Shown here in pieces: positions 56,332 through 63,604 of a stretch of DNA of 64,000 nt. The DNA comes from Holophagales bacterium (GTDB taxonomy: Bacteria; Acidobacteriota; Thermoanaerobaculia; Multivoradales; Multivoraceae): contig VXSP01000045.1 of assembly GCA_009837885.1 (NCBI GenBank), positions 475,644 to 539,643 on the forward strand, given 5' to 3'. Below the pieces are notes generated by a model. That model worked only from the letters and a program-made list of their open reading frames with translations. It ran no database searches and was not told where the DNA came from. The position numbers were made by a program, and so were the translations under genes. Within the stretch, counting starts at the first letter, position 1. Every line of letters starts with the position of its first letter.

Positions 56332-56850
56332 TCAGCCGGCGTCGGTCGCCGCGGCCTTGCGCCAGCGGTCGGCCAGCCGATCGTAGAGCACGAGGCCGAC
56401 AGTCATTCCCAGGTTGAGCGATACGGCGGTCGGTACGCGTACGTGGTGCGTGCAGCGATCCAGGATGCCATCGGAGATCGAGCCGCTCTCCGGTCCGAAC
56501 ACGTAGCAGGCCCGCTCCGGATGGGTGAAGCCCGGGAGCGGAACCGCCTCCGGCACGATCTCCACCGCGACCAGGTCCGCGTCGCGTGGGGCCGCTTCCA
56601 GCAGGTCGTCGACCTCGAGCACCGGAACGTGGCGGTAGGCCCTGGTCGGGTCGGTGGGCAACCGGCGGATATCGATGTCCTTGGAGGCCTGGCCCAGGAT
56701 GATCATGCGGGCTTGGAAGCAGAGCGCCGCCCGCAGCGCGTGCCCGACGTTCACCGGATCGGACGGGCGGTCGAGGGCGACGCAGGCGAAACCGCGGCCG
56801 CCCAGGAGATCGGCGCGCCGCTGCACCCGGCGTTCGATCTTCTTTCCCAT
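56332..56850 (-). CDS. SpoU/TrmH-family RNA 2'-O-methyltransferase
   Basis: SPOUT-fold methyltransferase of 172 residues, probably acting on a tRNA ribose. Motif II YVFGPESGSISDGIL and motif III VRVPTAVSLNLGMTVGLVLYDR form the knotted SAM site. The size and the N-terminal VALDRPSDPVNVGHALRAAL fit a TrmL/TrmJ-type tRNA enzyme rather than rRNA RlmB. It lies 13 bases after the kinase-mutase fusion on the same strand. Confidence 0.88.
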   Translation of the reverse strand: MGKKIERRVQRRADLLGGRGFACVALDRPSDPVNVGHALRAALCFQARMIILGQASKDIDIRRLPTDPTRAYRHVPVLEVDDLLEAAPRDADLVAVEIVPEAVPLPGFTHPERACYVFGPESGSISDGILDRCTHHVRVPTAVSLNLGMTVGLVLYDRLADRWRKAAATDAG

Positions 56851-56863
56851 TCAGCTCCCCCGT

Positions 56864-59053
56864 TCAGGTCTCCGCGTCGCTGTAGCGTTCGAACGCCCGC
56901 TCGATCAGGAGCTGCAGGGGAAACCGGCTGAGCCTGCCGGTATCGGCCACGCGCTCACCGAAGCTGGTGACGGCGTCGGCGGCGATTCCGTCGCCCCAGA
57001 TCAGCACGGGCACCGGGTCGGCGCCGTGGACGCCGACCTCGGACAGGGTGGCATGGTCCGCCGTCACAGCCACCCGGATCGGTCGTTCCAGGCGCTCGAG
57101 GAGGACGCCCAGCTCCCGGTCGACCCGTTCGAGGAAGGCGACCTTCTGGTCGGGCCGCCGGTCGTGGGCGGCGATGTCGGCGCCCTTGACATGGACCATG
57201 ACCAGGTCGTGCTCCTCGAGCGCCTCCACCGCGCACTGGAACTTGAGCGCCAGGTCCGTGTCGACGTTCGCGGTCATGCCGGGTCGATGAACCGTCGTTG
57301 CGCCGAGCGCCGAGGCGATCCCCATCACCGTTCGGTCGCCGCCGATACAGGCGGCGGAGACCGGCAGGCCGCCCGGCTCCAGAGGCAGCAGACGGTGGAC
57401 TCGACCCACTCCCCGCGTCAGTACCGCGTTTGCCGACAGACCGCCGTTCCGGCGCCGCGTCTCGTTTGCCGGATGCCGGGCCAGGACGCGGCGCGCCTCC
57501 TGTTCGAACAGAGCCAGGACACGGGCCGTCCGCTCGGCCGCCTCGTCGTTTGGGTCGAGCGGCCGCGGCACCAGCGGCGGCCCCGAGGGGGCCCCGTCTC
57601 CGGGATCCGATCCCTCGATGGCGGAGGTCAGGCCGTCGCCGCGGAGCGTGATCGCGAGACGGTGTTCGGTGGTAGCGCGGACCCGCACCTTGACCCTGTC
57701 CGAAGCGGGGAGATCCAGCCGATCGATGGCCTTGGCCAGCTTCCTGGCGTCGTCACGGATGCGCCCGGCCCGGCGATCCACCACGTAGCCGCGTTCGTCC
57801 AGGGTGGCGAAGTTCCCCCGGATGGCGATCGTGCCCGCCTTCAGCTTGAGTCCGGCCCCCAGCGCCTCGATCGGTCCCCGGGTCATGACCCTCGGGGACT
57901 GGGAGAAGAGCGCGAGATTCCCCGATGCCGTGTCCGGGACGACACCCGGAGCCACCGGATCCGCCAGGCCGTTGGCGCCTTCCCGGGCCAGGCGGTCCAG
58001 GTTCGGTGTGCGCGCCGCTTCGAGGGGCGTCCGGCCGCCAAGGGATCGAAGAGGACGATCGGGGAGACCGTCGATCACGAGCATCAGGACGGGAGGACGC
58101 GGCTCGCCCAGCCCTTTCACCGATGCCTGCGTGAGCCATGGCAGTCGTTGGGACATGTTCTGCCCGAGCAACCCGATGGCGGCCGCGAGCGCGGGCTCCC
58201 GCTCGGTCGTGTCGAGGGTGGGGACGCCCACTTCCTCCGCCAGCCGAATCAGATGGTCCTGCTGGGCGCGGAGCACGCGAAAGTGATCGAGTTGCCGGTG
58301 CGATCTCCTCACGGCGACCGTTTCGCGGGCCAGGAAGTGGCTGCGGTGAACCTCCTCGTCCTCCGTCGTGAGCAGGACGAAGAACTGGTAGGCGTCGGCA
58401 TCCAGATCCGGGAAGGGAACCAGTCCGGGCAGCAGGTGGACCCCCTCGACGACCAGGCTCAGGTTCTCGGCGATCGCCCGCTCGACGACCGCCCGGACCC
58501 CCACGCAGACTCTCGTTGCCTGTTCCTCGAACGTAGCGAGCGGCGGATCCTGAGTGCCGCCCGGGAGTTCAGGCGATGCGGCCTCGGTCGTCTCGTAGCT
58601 CGAAACGTGGAGGGCCGGCAGGATGGCCGGCGCGAAGACCATCCGCATCACCTGCCGCACCGTGTCGGTCGCGTTGACTCGATAGATCCGGAGTTGGGGC
58701 GCCAGGTCGAGGGCGAGTGTCGACTTGCCGGTTCCGCCGGCGCCGCCGACGTAGAAGATGAGAGGTCTCGGCAACCGTCGCAGGCGCCGGATGAGCCGGT
58801 AGCGCCCGGCGACATCGGAGCCCTCCTTCACTTCGAGAAGTTCGGCGATGCGCTGCGCGAGATGCCGCTTCTCCAGGCTGGAGATCTCCTCCCGGACCAG
58901 CCGGCGCTGCAGTTGCTCGACGCGACGGTAGGCGTGGTCGAAGTCCAGGCCGGCGGCGTAGAGGCTTCGGGCAAGCAGACCGCGCGAAAACGGCTGGGCT
59001 TCGCCCTGGTCGGTGATCTGGATCGGCCGTTCCGGACCCTCGTTGGCGCTCAG
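56864..59053 (-). CDS. 2-phosphoglycerate kinase fused to archaeal-type phosphoglycerate mutase
   Basis: A 729-residue two-domain protein. Residues 11-75 look like an ATP-cone; about 95-315 form a P-loop kinase with YVGGAGGTGKST (Walker A), LHVSSYETTEAA and VVEGVHLLPG, as in archaeal 2-phosphoglycerate kinases that make 2,3-bisphosphoglycerate. From 320 it is a cofactor-independent mutase of the ApgM type: VLMLVIDGLPDRP, GGRTPLEAARTPNLDRL, HVKGADIAAHDRRPDQK and TADHATLSEVGVHGADPVP keep the metal-binding Asp and His residues. The nucleophile motif reads VPDTASGNLAL, with Thr375 where Ser is usual. No ATG fits: the best start is CTG at 59053, which overlaps the upstream stop and has GGAGG just before it. 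Confidence 0.86.
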   Translation of the reverse strand: MSANEGPERPIQITDQGEAQPFSRGLLARSLYAAGLDFDHAYRRVEQLQRRLVREEISSLEKRHLAQRIAELLEVKEGSDVAGRYRLIRRLRRLPRPLIFYVGGAGGTGKSTLALDLAPQLRIYRVNATDTVRQVMRMVFAPAILPALHVSSYETTEAASPELPGGTQDPPLATFEEQATRVCVGVRAVVERAIAENLSLVVEGVHLLPGLVPFPDLDADAYQFFVLLTTEDEEVHRSHFLARETVAVRRSHRQLDHFRVLRAQQDHLIRLAEEVGVPTLDTTEREPALAAAIGLLGQNMSQRLPWLTQASVKGLGEPRPPVLMLVIDGLPDRPLRSLGGRTPLEAARTPNLDRLAREGANGLADPVAPGVVPDTASGNLALFSQSPRVMTRGPIEALGAGLKLKAGTIAIRGNFATLDERGYVVDRRAGRIRDDARKLAKAIDRLDLPASDRVKVRVRATTEHRLAITLRGDGLTSAIEGSDPGDGAPSGPPLVPRPLDPNDEAAERTARVLALFEQEARRVLARHPANETRRRNGGLSANAVLTRGVGRVHRLLPLEPGGLPVSAACIGGDRTVMGIASALGATTVHRPGMTANVDTDLALKFQCAVEALEEHDLVMVHVKGADIAAHDRRPDQKVAFLERVDRELGVLLERLERPIRVAVTADHATLSEVGVHGADPVPVLIWGDGIAADAVTSFGERVADTGRLSRFPLQLLIERAFERYSDAET

Positions 59054-59232
59054 GTTTCCTCCCGCGCCCGTCGCAGGGGACAGTTGGAGCAGTTGAGGCG
59101 CTCCCCGTCCGGGCCGAGCACGTCCGGGCCGCCGCAGGATCCACGCAGACAGCGGCCACTGATCAGCACGCCGACGGACATGAGAATCACCGAAGCGGCT
59201 ATCACCGTGATGGTCAGAAACAGGATCGCCAT
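59050..59232 (-). CDS. NqrM-like small membrane cysteine protein
   Basis: 60 residues: one membrane helix (about 3-24) and four cysteines at 28, 33, 48 and 51 in the pattern RCLRGSCGGPDVLG then LNCSNCP. The GSCGG motif and layout match NqrM (DUF539), which delivers iron to the Na+-translocating NADH:quinone oxidoreductase. Its stop overlaps the CTG start of the kinase-mutase gene. apbE, another Nqr maturation factor, is about 4.4 kb away. The Nqr subunits are not in the window. Confidence 0.62.
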   Translation of the reverse strand: MAILFLTITVIAASVILMSVGVLISGRCLRGSCGGPDVLGPDGERLNCSNCPLRRAREET

Positions 59233-59459
59233 GGCTCGCGGCCGAGTCTAGCCACTTCCTCGACAACGCGGCGCTCTGGGAGAGGTGACCGAAGGTGACG
59301 ATCCTGGACGACGACGCGTTCACGGCGCCGTACTGGCGGTCGTTCAATCGCGATGCGCCACGGCCCACATCGCATGCGCGTGTTTTCCCCGCCCTCCCAC
59401 CTTTCTTGCTCTTCACCTACAAGATGGTTCGAGAGGACTTCTCTTTTCTCACGGAAAGT

Positions 59460-59488
59460 TTGTCCTTCATGGCCGGCACTTGTATCTC
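59460..59488 (+). promoter_or_regulatory. Possible promoter for the secreted protease
   Basis: -35 TTGTCC, 17-base spacer, -10 TATCTC, in a less GC-rich patch. Matches are partial, so low confidence. The gap 59233-59647 otherwise holds the leader ORF at 59553-59651 and no other recognisable gene. Confidence 0.3.
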
Positions 59489-59552
59489 TCAAATGGGAGT
59501 TGCGCAGGCCTCTCCATTTCTGCAACAAACCCGCAAGGAGGTGCCGGCGAGG

Positions 59553-59651
59553 ATGCATGTGAGGTCGATCGTTCGGGTTGTCGGGTTGTCGGGTTTGGGC
59601 GTCGAGCCTGCCGTCTTCGGAGACCGGACCGGCCAGGAGCCGCGGGAATGA
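59553..59651 (+). CDS. 32-codon leader ORF overlapping the protease start
   Basis: An AAGGAGG ribosome binding site stands about 12 bases before an ATG that opens a 32-codon ORF starting MHVRSIVRVVGLSG. Its TGA overlaps the protease ATG (ATGA arrangement), so translation may be coupled. The peptide has no recognised family; it may be a leader, or simply an out-of-frame upstream start. Confidence 0.35.
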   Translation: MHVRSIVRVVGLSGLGVEPAVFGDRTGQEPRE

Positions 59652-62600
59652 TGGCGCCGCGTTTTCCGGCCGGAGTGATCGCTGCCGTTCTGGGCGTCTG
59701 GCCAGCGGCGGTCCTTGCCCAGCCCGGCACGGAAGACCCGGCGCCGGCGATCCCCGGTCTCGCGCCGCTTAGCGAGGTACTGGTGCTGGAGACGCCACCG
59801 GTCGACGTTGTGGCGGCGGTTGCCGCAGCAAGCGTGGATGGCCGGGGAGGCCCCGTGCCGTTCGCCGACCCCTTCGCCGTGGACGTGAGCACGATCAGTC
59901 ACGGGCGCTGGGAAGCCAGCAGCGACGGGCGGACCGCGGTGTGGCGTTTGCGCGTCGTCTCGCCCGGCGCGGTCTCGCTCAACCTGGGCTTCGATCGCTA
60001 CCGGATGCCGCCGGGCGGCCGACTGCGGGTCCATACGCCGATGGGGGACGAGGTCGTCGGACCGTTCACGGAGGCGGACAACGAGGCCCACGGCGAGCTG
60101 TGGACTCAGGTCCTGTCCGGTGGCGACGCGGTGATCGAAGTGTCCGTGCCGGTTGACCGGATCGGCGAACTCGACCTGCGGCTGGACTCGGTCAACCGCG
60201 GGTTTCGCGATCTGGCCGACGTGAGGTCTCCAAGCCATGGTTCGTGCAGCGTCGACGTGGCGTGCAGTAGTGGGGATGCCTGGCGCGATCAGATCCGAAG
60301 CGTGGGCCTGTACTCGGTGAAGGGTAGTCTCGCTTGCAGCGGCGCACTCCTGAACAACACGGCTCTAGACGCCAGACCGCTGTTCCTGACGGCGTATCAC
60401 TGCTTCGCGAACACGGGGGGGACCGCTGCGAGCGTGGTGGTGTACTGGAACTACCAGCGCCCTGTCTGCGGATCGGGAACGGCGACGCTGGGCGACAGCC
60501 AGAGTGGCGCGACGTTTCGCTATCTACAGTGGCAAGCCGACATCGCGCTCCTGGAACTCGACGACCGGCTGGAACCGGAGCACGATCTGTACCTGGCGGG
60601 CTGGGACCTGGGCTCCCAAACCCCGGCGTCGGCCGTGGGTATTCACCACCCGAAGAACCACTTCAAGTCGATCAACGTCGAGAACGAACTTCTGAGGCGC
60701 ACGGCCTGGTCGCAGCACTATCCGACCGATCGCGGCACTCACTGGCGGGTTGGGGGCTGGGCGTCCGGAGCCAACGAGAAGGGATCGTCGGGCTCGCCGC
60801 TGTTCGACGCCAACAAGCGCATCGTGGGAACGCTCACTGGAGGAGATTCCGAGTGCGGCAACGCCGAGGCGGACTGGTATGGAGCGCTGACGAAGGCTCG
60901 GTTAGCACTCGATGACGTTCTGGATCCGATCGGCACCGGGGACAACTGGCTCGACGGCATGAACGCGGACCTGGCCCCCCGCAGCCTGCAGGCGCTCGAC
61001 GACAAGGCGGTGAAGCTGCCTGGAGACGGCGAGTCGCCCGACGTGTTGACGGTCGACCTTGCGCCGTTTTTCTTTGACGATGGCTCCCTGACCTACACGG
61101 CGACTTCTTCCGACGAGTCGAAGGTGACGGTCGCGGTTACCGGATCCTCGGTTTCCATCACGCCGGTGGCCACGGGCGTCTCGACGATCATGGTGACCGC
61201 GACGGAGGCTGAAGGCGACTCGGGCCGAACGGTGACACAGACGTTCCGGGCAGTCGCTGGCGCGAACCGTTCGCCGGAGACGGTGGGAACGCTGGGCGCG
61301 CAGAAAGTGAGGCAGCGCCGGACGGTCGAGATCGCGCTGGCGAGCGCGTTCACGGACGGTGAAGGCGACGCCCTTACATACGCGGCTTCGTCAACGGACG
61401 CGTCCGTGGCGAGGGTTTCGCTTTCGGGCTCAACGCTCACGGTGGAGGCGTTGGAGGTCTCCCCGCCGACGATTCACGTGCCAGTGACGATCGACGTGAC
61501 GGCCACCGACACGGCAGGGTCGGGAACGAAAGCGAGACACCGCTTCCCGGTCACCGTCTTCAACGATCCTCCGGAGGCGGTCGGGTCGCCCGCGGAAGTC
61601 CAGCTCCGGATCGGCGACGGCAGCGAGGTCGTGGACGTCTCCTCGTGGTTCACCGATCCAGAGGGCGACGCCCTGGACTACACATTGCGCGATCACGTGT
61701 ACGCGACGTTCAAGCACAGCCTTTCGGGCTCGATGCTCACGCTGAGTCCGGTGGCCCGGGGCCGTAGCCGGCTCGCCGTGGGGGCGCGTGAGAGAGAGGG
61801 CTTGCGCCGAGTGGTGTGGCAGGGCGTTCACGTGCGGGTGAAGAACCGCCGGGGCGTTATCGTGTCGGCCGAGGAGTTGAACGTCGTCGAGGGGGCGACG
61901 GCGACGTACACGGTCGTGCTCGATTCCGAACCGACGGGCCAGGTGACGATCGCGCCGTCCGTTGCGTCGGGCGGCAAGGTGACGGTGTCCCCGTCGTCGC
62001 TGACCTTCGAGGCGACGGACTGGGAGACAGCCCAGACGGTGACCGTGACTGGAGTGGAGGACGACGACATGGCGTCCGAGTCGGTCACGATCGGCCACGC
62101 CGTGAGCGGCGCCGACTACGGTTCGGTCACCGCCGCATCGGTGAGCGTGAAGGTGCTCGACGACGAGGGGCCGCCAGTCGTGTCGATCGACGCGGCGCGG
62201 GGGCCTGAGAACGGAGGGCCGCTGACCTTCGACGTGGCGTTGGCCTTTTCGACCACCGAGCAGGTGACGGTGGACTACGCGACGTCGGACGATACGGCCA
62301 GGGCTGGCTCCGACTACACCGCGGCAAGCGGGACGCTGACGTTCGCGGCTGGAACGACTACGGGGCGGATCGTGGTCTCCGTCGTGGACGACGAGCGACT
62401 CAATGAGGGAGAGGAGACCTTCCTGCTGACGCTGCGGAATCCCGTCAAGGCGACATTGGCCGGCGATGGTTCAACGCTTCAGGCGGTCGGTACGATCGAG
62501 GACGACGACTTCCCGCCATTCGTCGGGCGCTGGCAATCTCCCACCAACTTCATCGTGTGGGAGCGAGAGACCATTCAGATGTACCTTTACCTCGATCGGC

Positions 62601-63604
62601 ACCCGGAGCGCGAAGTGAGGGTTCGCGTGGAGCCGACGAATCAGGGCGGAGCCGACCAGACTGACTACTTCTTTCTTCCCAGTACCATCGTGTGGCAGCC
62701 GGGCGAACAGTTCAGGTGGCAGCGCTTCCGGTTCTTGGCCGTGGACGACGACGAAGACGACGATTGCGAGTCGGTCACGTTGAAGGTCGTGTCTGAATCG
62801 CAGGAGGTGATCCTGGATCCCGTCACCATCAGGATCGTCGACGACGACGGCGCTACGGTCGACTGCGGTGGCAGTGGCAGTGGCGGTGGTGGTGGCGGCG
62901 GCGGCGGCGGTGCACCTCCGCTCCCCGAGCCGGAGCCGGACCCGCAGCCTCCTCCCCCTCCCTCTCGACCGCCGACCGCGGCGTTCGGCGTGGAAGGCGC
63001 TACCTGCGCCGGGGACCTCTGCCGCGCGCTCACCGGCGAAGCCGTGCGCTTCACGGACACGAGCGCCGGCGCCGTGCGCATCCGCCGCTGGGAGTTCGGC
63101 GACGGCAATACTTCCCGGTCCGCCGCTCCGATCCACGCCTGGTCGTCTCCGGGCTTCTACGAAGTGGAGCTGGAGGTGAGCGACGGTACCTCTCCGTCGA
63201 CGGCGCGGCGGACGTTCCTGGTCGAGGCGGCTGAACCGAAGGGGACCTGCGTAGCGGCCGCCGAGACGCTCTGCCTCCGGGACTCGCGCTACGCGGTGGC
63301 TGTGGAGTGGCGCGGCGGCGATGGCCAAAGCGGCTCAGGCCGAGTGGTCCATGCGGGGACGAACGACTCGGGGTTGTTCGCGTTCTTCGACGCGAACAAC
63401 TGGGAGGTGCTGATCAAGGTGCTCGACGGTTGCGCCGCGAACGGCCACGTATGGGTGTACGGCGGGTCGACGACGGACCTGGGCTACGCGATCCGGGTGA
63501 CGGACACGTTGACCGGCGCGTCGAAGGAGTACCGAAACGAGCCGGGCAGCCCGGCTGCAGCGATCTCGGACGTTACGGCCTTCTCGGACGGCTGTCGACC
63601 GTAG
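59648..63604 (+). CDS. Secreted lysyl-endopeptidase-like serine protease with Calx-beta and PKD domains
   Basis: 1318-residue exported protein. A signal peptide (to about residue 25, AVLAQP) precedes a pro-region and an S1-type domain like Achromobacter lysyl endopeptidase: ACSGALLNNTALDARPLFLT leads into YHCF with His251, then QADIALLEL with Asp298 and GSSGSPLF with Ser381. After it come Ig/cadherin-like repeats (about 440-740), Calx-beta repeats with VEGATATYTVVLDSEP and GSDYTAASGTLTFAAG, a Gly9 and Pro-rich linker, a PKD domain (RWEFGDGNTS) and a C-terminal domain ending in SGLFAFFDANNWEVLIKVLD and beyond. That last domain recurs, from memory, at the ends of acidobacterial secreted proteins. 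Likely surface-bound or released for protein degradation. Confidence 0.85.
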   Translation: MMAPRFPAGVIAAVLGVWPAAVLAQPGTEDPAPAIPGLAPLSEVLVLETPPVDVVAAVAAASVDGRGGPVPFADPFAVDVSTISHGRWEASSDGRTAVWRLRVVSPGAVSLNLGFDRYRMPPGGRLRVHTPMGDEVVGPFTEADNEAHGELWTQVLSGGDAVIEVSVPVDRIGELDLRLDSVNRGFRDLADVRSPSHGSCSVDVACSSGDAWRDQIRSVGLYSVKGSLACSGALLNNTALDARPLFLTAYHCFANTGGTAASVVVYWNYQRPVCGSGTATLGDSQSGATFRYLQWQADIALLELDDRLEPEHDLYLAGWDLGSQTPASAVGIHHPKNHFKSINVENELLRRTAWSQHYPTDRGTHWRVGGWASGANEKGSSGSPLFDANKRIVGTLTGGDSECGNAEADWYGALTKARLALDDVLDPIGTGDNWLDGMNADLAPRSLQALDDKAVKLPGDGESPDVLTVDLAPFFFDDGSLTYTATSSDESKVTVAVTGSSVSITPVATGVSTIMVTATEAEGDSGRTVTQTFRAVAGANRSPETVGTLGAQKVRQRRTVEIALASAFTDGEGDALTYAASSTDASVARVSLSGSTLTVEALEVSPPTIHVPVTIDVTATDTAGSGTKARHRFPVTVFNDPPEAVGSPAEVQLRIGDGSEVVDVSSWFTDPEGDALDYTLRDHVYATFKHSLSGSMLTLSPVARGRSRLAVGAREREGLRRVVWQGVHVRVKNRRGVIVSAEELNVVEGATATYTVVLDSEPTGQVTIAPSVASGGKVTVSPSSLTFEATDWETAQTVTVTGVEDDDMASESVTIGHAVSGADYGSVTAASVSVKVLDDEGPPVVSIDAARGPENGGPLTFDVALAFSTTEQVTVDYATSDDTARAGSDYTAASGTLTFAAGTTTGRIVVSVVDDERLNEGEETFLLTLRNPVKATLAGDGSTLQAVGTIEDDDFPPFVGRWQSPTNFIVWERETIQMYLYLDRHPEREVRVRVEPTNQGGADQTDYFFLPSTIVWQPGEQFRWQRFRFLAVDDDEDDDCESVTLKVVSESQEVILDPVTIRIVDDDGATVDCGGSGSGGGGGGGGGGAPPLPEPEPDPQPPPPPSRPPTAAFGVEGATCAGDLCRALTGEAVRFTDTSAGAVRIRRWEFGDGNTSRSAAPIHAWSSPGFYEVELEVSDGTSPSTARRTFLVEAAEPKGTCVAAAETLCLRDSRYAVAVEWRGGDGQSGSGRVVHAGTNDSGLFAFFDANNWEVLIKVLDGCAANGHVWVYGGSTTDLGYAIRVTDTLTGASKEYRNEPGSPAAAISDVTAFSDGCRP

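Follow-up and report, generated by a model that had tools for sequence, protein, structure and literature searches.

What does a bacterium do with a kinase and a phosphoglycerate mutase joined in one protein? The question is raised by a minus-strand gene in the window, as we call the whole 64,000-nucleotide stretch of Holophagales DNA analyzed here. Its frame runs for 729 codons without an internal stop and then meets a stop codon. Translation probably begins at a CTG (position 59053), which overlaps the TGA of the gene before it (CTGA, 59053-59050). A sequence-only reading of this DNA had described an ATP-cone and a P-loop kinase followed by an archaeal-type phosphoglycerate mutase (ApgM) in one bacterial frame, and profile matches to both halves bear this out. 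The fusion is a real single frame, with one half of the 2-phosphoglycerate kinase (2PGK) family and one ApgM-type mutase half. The same reading knew of no described protein with this domain order, and our literature searches too returned no described 2PGK-ApgM fusion. A model of the full fusion has a mean pLDDT of 76.9 (20 sequences). Features of the gene and of its immediate upstream neighbor are collected in the table. The next gene downstream on the same strand (56332-56850) resembles, by eye, an SpoU-type RNA methyltransferase.

Table. Features of the fusion gene and its upstream neighbor (window coordinates)
Feature	Position	Strand	Basis
2PGK-ApgM fusion gene	56864..59053	-	729 aa plus stop; CTG start inferred; conserved relatives
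NqrM-like gene, 60 aa; TGA overlaps fusion CTG	59050..59232	-	tblastn conservation in the genus and in L067
GGAGG, possible ribosome-binding site	59058..59062	-	4 bases before CTG; read directly
ATP-cone-like region, residues 10-93, degenerate here	58775..59026	-	Pfam E 0.2; above cut-off in fused relatives
P-loop kinase domain, 2PGK family, residues 96-304	58142..58768	-	NCBIfam match; kinase fold
Walker A GGAGGTGKST, residues 103-112	58718..58747	-	Read directly; conserved in fused and standalone 2PGKs
Linker, residues 305-320	58094..58141	-	Between family matches; model low-confidence at 311-317
ApgM-type mutase domain, residues 321-722	56888..58093	-	TIGR00306 over cut-off; 2zkt_B structural match
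Thr375 codon, nucleophile position (Ser in ordinary ApgM)	57929..57931	-	Alignment

The N-terminal half is matched by the 2PGK model NF008994 over residues 16-304 (E 4.5e-73, 246 bits) and by the archaeal 2PGK model NF003259 over residues 11-293 (E 5e-66, 223 bits), with both scores under the curated cut-offs of 603 and 343, respectively. A 2PGK from a relative that keeps the two halves as separate genes (L068) passes the archaeal cut-off, 348 versus 343. The model of mevalonate-3-phosphate 5-kinase, which belongs to the same family, matches the window kinase at E 4.7e-11 and 43 bits. A generic or zeta-toxin-like kinase, the outcome that the sequence-only reading had named as its own refutation, was rejected, since the 2PGK models lead by far. 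Zeta-toxin matches fall below cut-off in the fused relatives, and the split 2PGK L068 passes the zeta-toxin cut-off at E 4.5e-8. The Walker A motif reported earlier reads as described, and its G103, G104, G107, G109, K110 and S111 are conserved in fused and standalone 2PGKs. About 35 positions are common to the two groups, including D130, R133, R137, H149, E196, G204-H206, R243 and R249. The claim of an ATP-cone stands less firmly: the region is marginal in the window protein (Pfam E 0.2), but it exceeds the cut-off in the fused relatives L066 and L019. Modeled alone (pLDDT 77.5, 11 sequences), the N-terminal half superposes on gluconate, UMP/CMP and adenylate kinases with Z of about 14; such matches show the fold and not the substrate. 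By profile, the protein shares its family, its P-loop kinase and its N-terminal ATP-cone-like region with archaeal 2PGK of the Methanothermus fervidus type (NF003259, COG2074). It differs in scoring under the curated cut-off, in its fusion to an ApgM domain, and in its phosphate-gene or nqr context.

The C-terminal half meets the apgM model TIGR00306 over residues 322-717 with 322.7 bits, just over the cut-off of 320, and falls short of the stricter equivalog PRK04024 (358 versus 489). Pfam assigns PhosphMutase and Metalloenzyme domains, and the full model superposes on 2zkt_B over 367 residues of this half (Z 36.7, rmsd 2.1). We take the roles of the metal ligands and of the nucleophile to be those of the equivalent positions in iPGM. 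On that basis the retention of metal ligands, already pointed out from the sequence, is complete, with D328, D626, H630, D666, H667 and H676 all present. We aligned 20 ordinary (S-type), 3 split and 31 fused sequences; D328, D626, D631, D666, H667, H676, R392, R412, R427, R428, R431, R465 and R547 are invariant throughout. At position 630, every Thr-type protein has His and most bacterial S-type ApgMs have Glu.

The nucleophile itself is changed. Its column holds Ser in 20/20 ordinary proteins and Thr in all 31 fused and all 3 split sequences (Thr375 in the window protein). Four residues farther on, a His that the split relatives retain is replaced in the fusions by Asn, Thr or Ser; four ordinary archaeal proteins have also lost it. 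Judging from the alignment, these two changes could alter or abolish mutase activity. Threonine does work as the nucleophile in phosphopentomutase (DeoB), a member of the same superfamily, and the PDB structural matches include T85 variants and phosphorylated forms of this enzyme. Identity to DeoB is only about 12 to 16%, however, and its cap domain and substrate differ. Thr-nucleophile hydrolases, the NPP enzymes, are also among the structural matches. Compared with ApgM (2zkt, 3kd8; TIGR00306), then, the fusion shares the fold, metal ligands and arginines and reaches the family cut-off, but it has Thr for Ser, lacks the neighboring His, carries a kinase, and coexists with another mutase in the genome. 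A distant ApgM-like protein (L181:6740-7969; PGTDVGTLSVLGYDP) has Thr at the nucleophile position and no 2PGK nearby, and so we rejected the idea that Thr is confined to 2PGK-linked proteins.

Full-length fusions were found in 11/11 genomes of the genus in a first sample of the phylum, with three more in a second, and in at least six Acidobacteriota families (f1, f4, f13, f35, f39, f82). This recurrence in many independent assemblies rules against the other refutation put forward with the sequence-only reading, an assembly error at the junction of two genes that are separate elsewhere. Two-gene versions occur only in related genomes, and there the genes are clustered: in G266 and G405 2PGK and apgM are overlapping or adjacent, and in G006 they lie in one cluster. 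When the nucleophile motif was left out of the tree, the fusions still formed a single clade (support 100/99) beside the separate Thr-type mutases of these three genomes. One change on this tree accounts for the Thr state, but support for the whole Thr clade is only 83/77. Compared with four relatives, the kinase half has a dN/dS of 0.07-0.17 and the mutase half one of 0.09-0.12; both are under purifying selection. Searches outside Acidobacteriota returned the fusion in 0/301 Chloroflexota (E up to 1e-40) and 0/111 Deinococcota genomes. NF008994-type 2PGK was present in 61/61 Deinococcota genomes sampled (loci L101-L118; G305-G363). In G266, G095, G148 and G242 (L069:2439-3249; L070, L071, L072), 2PGK has small neighboring genes that, by eye, resemble those for an anti-sigma kinase and for a STAS-type antagonist.

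Does the fusion serve glycolysis? The window's genome encodes a separate Ser-type ApgM over the PRK04135 cut-off (499 versus 468), and neither iPGM nor dPGM reaches its cut-off there. Twelve genomes, ten of them carrying the fusion, were searched for iPGM and dPGM: iPGM exceeded its cut-off in G238, G393, G430 and G447, and dPGM (GpmA) did so in the fusion genome G386, being absent over cut-off in the other 11, the window's genome included. G000, G160, G152, G001 and G090 each have a second match to ApgM. Since another candidate mutase is found in 10/10 fusion genomes checked, the fusion is probably not the glycolytic enzyme, and a housekeeping glycolytic mutase is unlikely; the role in lower glycolysis offered by the sequence-only reading loses ground for the same reason, at least in its plain form.

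We then considered the neighborhood. In the window's own family the fusion follows a Na+-NQR operon and not Pst/Pho genes: at L067 (G152), L010, L016 and L080 the order is nqrA, nqrB, nqrF and apbE genes, a small NqrM-like gene, and the fusion. The nqr and apbE names derive from similarity to L067 proteins identified by eye. The name of the NqrM-like gene rests on its position in the nqr operon and on its Cys pattern, and Pfam gave no match to its L067 homologue. Between the NqrM-like gene and apbE the window holds a plus-strand frame (59285-63604) of 1439 aa that by eye resembles a protease, with a trypsin-like region and repeats. The two genes adjoin without it in L010, L016 and L067; homologous sequence occupies this site in L006 as well.

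In other families the neighbors are phosphate genes. The order pstS-phoU-pstC-pstA-pstB-pstB precedes the fusion in G001 and G386 and follows it in G430. The contig of G417 breaks off within apgM, and the remaining fragment has pst genes, a response regulator and a sensor kinase next to it. The fusion adjoins Na/Pi-cotransporter and phoU genes in G080; 2PGK lies within nptA-phoU-ppx clusters in G006, G022, G035 and G048; and nptA adjoins the split 2PGK/apgM pair of G405. ppk1 adjoins 2PGK in G008 and G172 and is near the fusion in G090. Pfam confirmed Na/Pi cotransporter, PhoU, Ppx/GppA, CBS and PPK1 among the sampled neighbors. Outside the window's family, a phosphate gene (pst, phoU, Na/Pi cotransporter, ppx or ppk1) occurs within 7 kb at 13/28 fusion or 2PGK loci (12/27 from a script, to which we add L157, where only apgM served as the anchor) versus 0/22 ordinary apgM loci (Fisher p 1.6e-4). 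Counted by hand by family, the figures are 9/15 versus 0/20 (p 7e-5, with 21 control families entered as 20). Both p values are rough, because we had viewed the case loci before settling on the test and because some of these loci are closely related. phoU is in the same cluster in 8/16 genomes searched, a set picked with contexts known. The 2PGKs of Deinococcota had phosphate neighbors at 0/18 loci, which rejects a phosphate linkage of 2PGK everywhere. The neighborhood does not reveal a substrate.

The sequence-only reading had not noticed that the nucleophile is changed, that the operon context is NQR here and Pst/Pho in other families, or that the genome encodes a separate mutase. With these facts in hand, we infer substrates, direction, channeling, regulation and physiological role as follows. 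We propose, with a probability of about 0.45, that the protein is a bifunctional enzyme that converts 3-phosphoglycerate (3PG) through 2-phosphoglycerate (2PG) to 2,3-bisphosphoglycerate (2,3-BPG), using ATP, and that it serves phosphate homeostasis. T375, as a phospho-threonine, would let the C-terminal domain interconvert 3PG and 2PG, the N-terminal domain would phosphorylate 2PG to 2,3-BPG, and the ATP-cone might tune the kinase by adenine nucleotides. 2,3-BPG could then act as a soluble phosphate reserve or as a signal of phosphate status. The mutase feeding 2PG to the kinase, an idea already present in the sequence-only reading, would be the best-supported mechanism. The synthase is supported by the 2PGK and ApgM matches, the conserved kinase and mutase residues and the selection on both halves; by the fused clade and, next to it in the tree, the split Thr-type mutases whose genes cluster with 2PGK; by the phosphate genes near case loci and their absence at controls; and by the score of L068, the other mutase in every fusion genome checked, and a Thr at the phosphopentomutase nucleophile position. 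Against it stand a kinase below the 2PGK cut-offs, nqr and not phosphate linkage in the window's family, the Deinococcota loci, and the changed nucleophile with its lost His. Outside evidence for a phosphate role is only suggestive. Overexpression of the rice 2PGK-family homologue LPA1/OsPGK1 raised total seed phosphorus, which ties it to phosphorus storage (PMC4844318); this plant protein has only weak similarity to 2PGK (PMC6417671), and the accessible text mentions no ApgM fusion. In methanogens, cyclic 2,3-diphosphoglycerate (cDPG) was proposed as a store of carbon and phosphate (PMC1224877).

How else might the two halves work together? PFK-2/FBPase-2 likewise pairs a P-loop kinase with a phosphoglycerate-mutase-like domain, and its metabolite is a bisphosphate. 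The main rival builds on this arrangement: the kinase would make 2,3-BPG and the Thr-type domain would hydrolyze it, or another phosphoester, thereby setting the level of a bisphosphate signal. The resemblance is an analogy and we claim no homology, since the second domain of PFK-2/FBPase-2 has the unrelated histidine-phosphatase/dPGM fold. With Thr in place of Ser and the nearby His gone, as in every fusion, hydrolysis could be favored, and the NPP enzymes appear among the structural matches; yet all conserved ApgM arginines are kept, Thr serves a true mutase as well, and the overall fold is nearest to ApgM. We consider such a controller unlikely. The same two changes might instead mark the mutase half as a catalytically dead phosphoglycerate sensor that regulates the kinase. 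This we hold to be improbable given the intact metal ligands and arginines, the low dN/dS, the competence of Thr in relatives, and the His retained by split Thr-type genes.

Slightly less likely than the hydrolytic controller is a kinase acceptor other than 2PG, such as another phosphorylated polyol or acid, with a matching job for the mutase half. The mevalonate-3-phosphate 5-kinase in the family, a rice relative for which an inositol monophosphate kinase role was proposed (PMC4844318), the sub-threshold kinase score and the gluconate and nucleotide kinases as nearest solved folds all point this way. They are countered by the gap between 246 and 223 bits for the 2PGK models and 43 for the mevalonate model, by fusion to a phosphoglycerate-type enzyme, and by the split relative L068. 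Finally, 2,3-BPG could be made as the cofactor of GpmA or as a precursor of cDPG for use as a compatible solute. In methanogens, the 2,3-DPG from which cDPG is formed does come from 2PGK (PMC10690619), and one fusion genome has GpmA, but the enzyme is missing over cut-off from nearly all genomes searched. A weak search for cDPG synthetase, with a motif alone and no positive control, gave 0 matches in 149 genomes, a result too slight to count against the pathway. We regard this explanation as very improbable, and the compatible-solute or cDPG role suggested by the sequence-only reading found no support.

The synthase reading bears on a widespread family. 2PGK homologues occur throughout the sampled Deinococcota, in many Acidobacteriota, in archaea and in plants, while the literature we found defines a role only in methanogens that make cDPG and reports enzyme activity for no bacterial 2PGK. 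The fusion ties 2PGK to its likely substrate supplier, within pst/pho clusters in several families, and this makes a bacterial role directly testable. The consistent Ser-to-Thr swap is a clean case for how mutase and phosphatase chemistry part in the superfamily. Tentatively, and with less confidence than in the synthase itself, we suggest that bacteria make 2,3-BPG from 3PG with one fused enzyme whose mutase domain has a threonine nucleophile, and that this metabolite is tied into the Pst/Pho system as a phosphate reserve or a signal, roughly parallel to PFK-2/FBPase-2 and to the phytate-linked 2PGK homologue of plants. If 2,3-BPG is indeed a bacterial phosphate store or signal, bacteria would have a type of phosphate buffer that has not been described in them.
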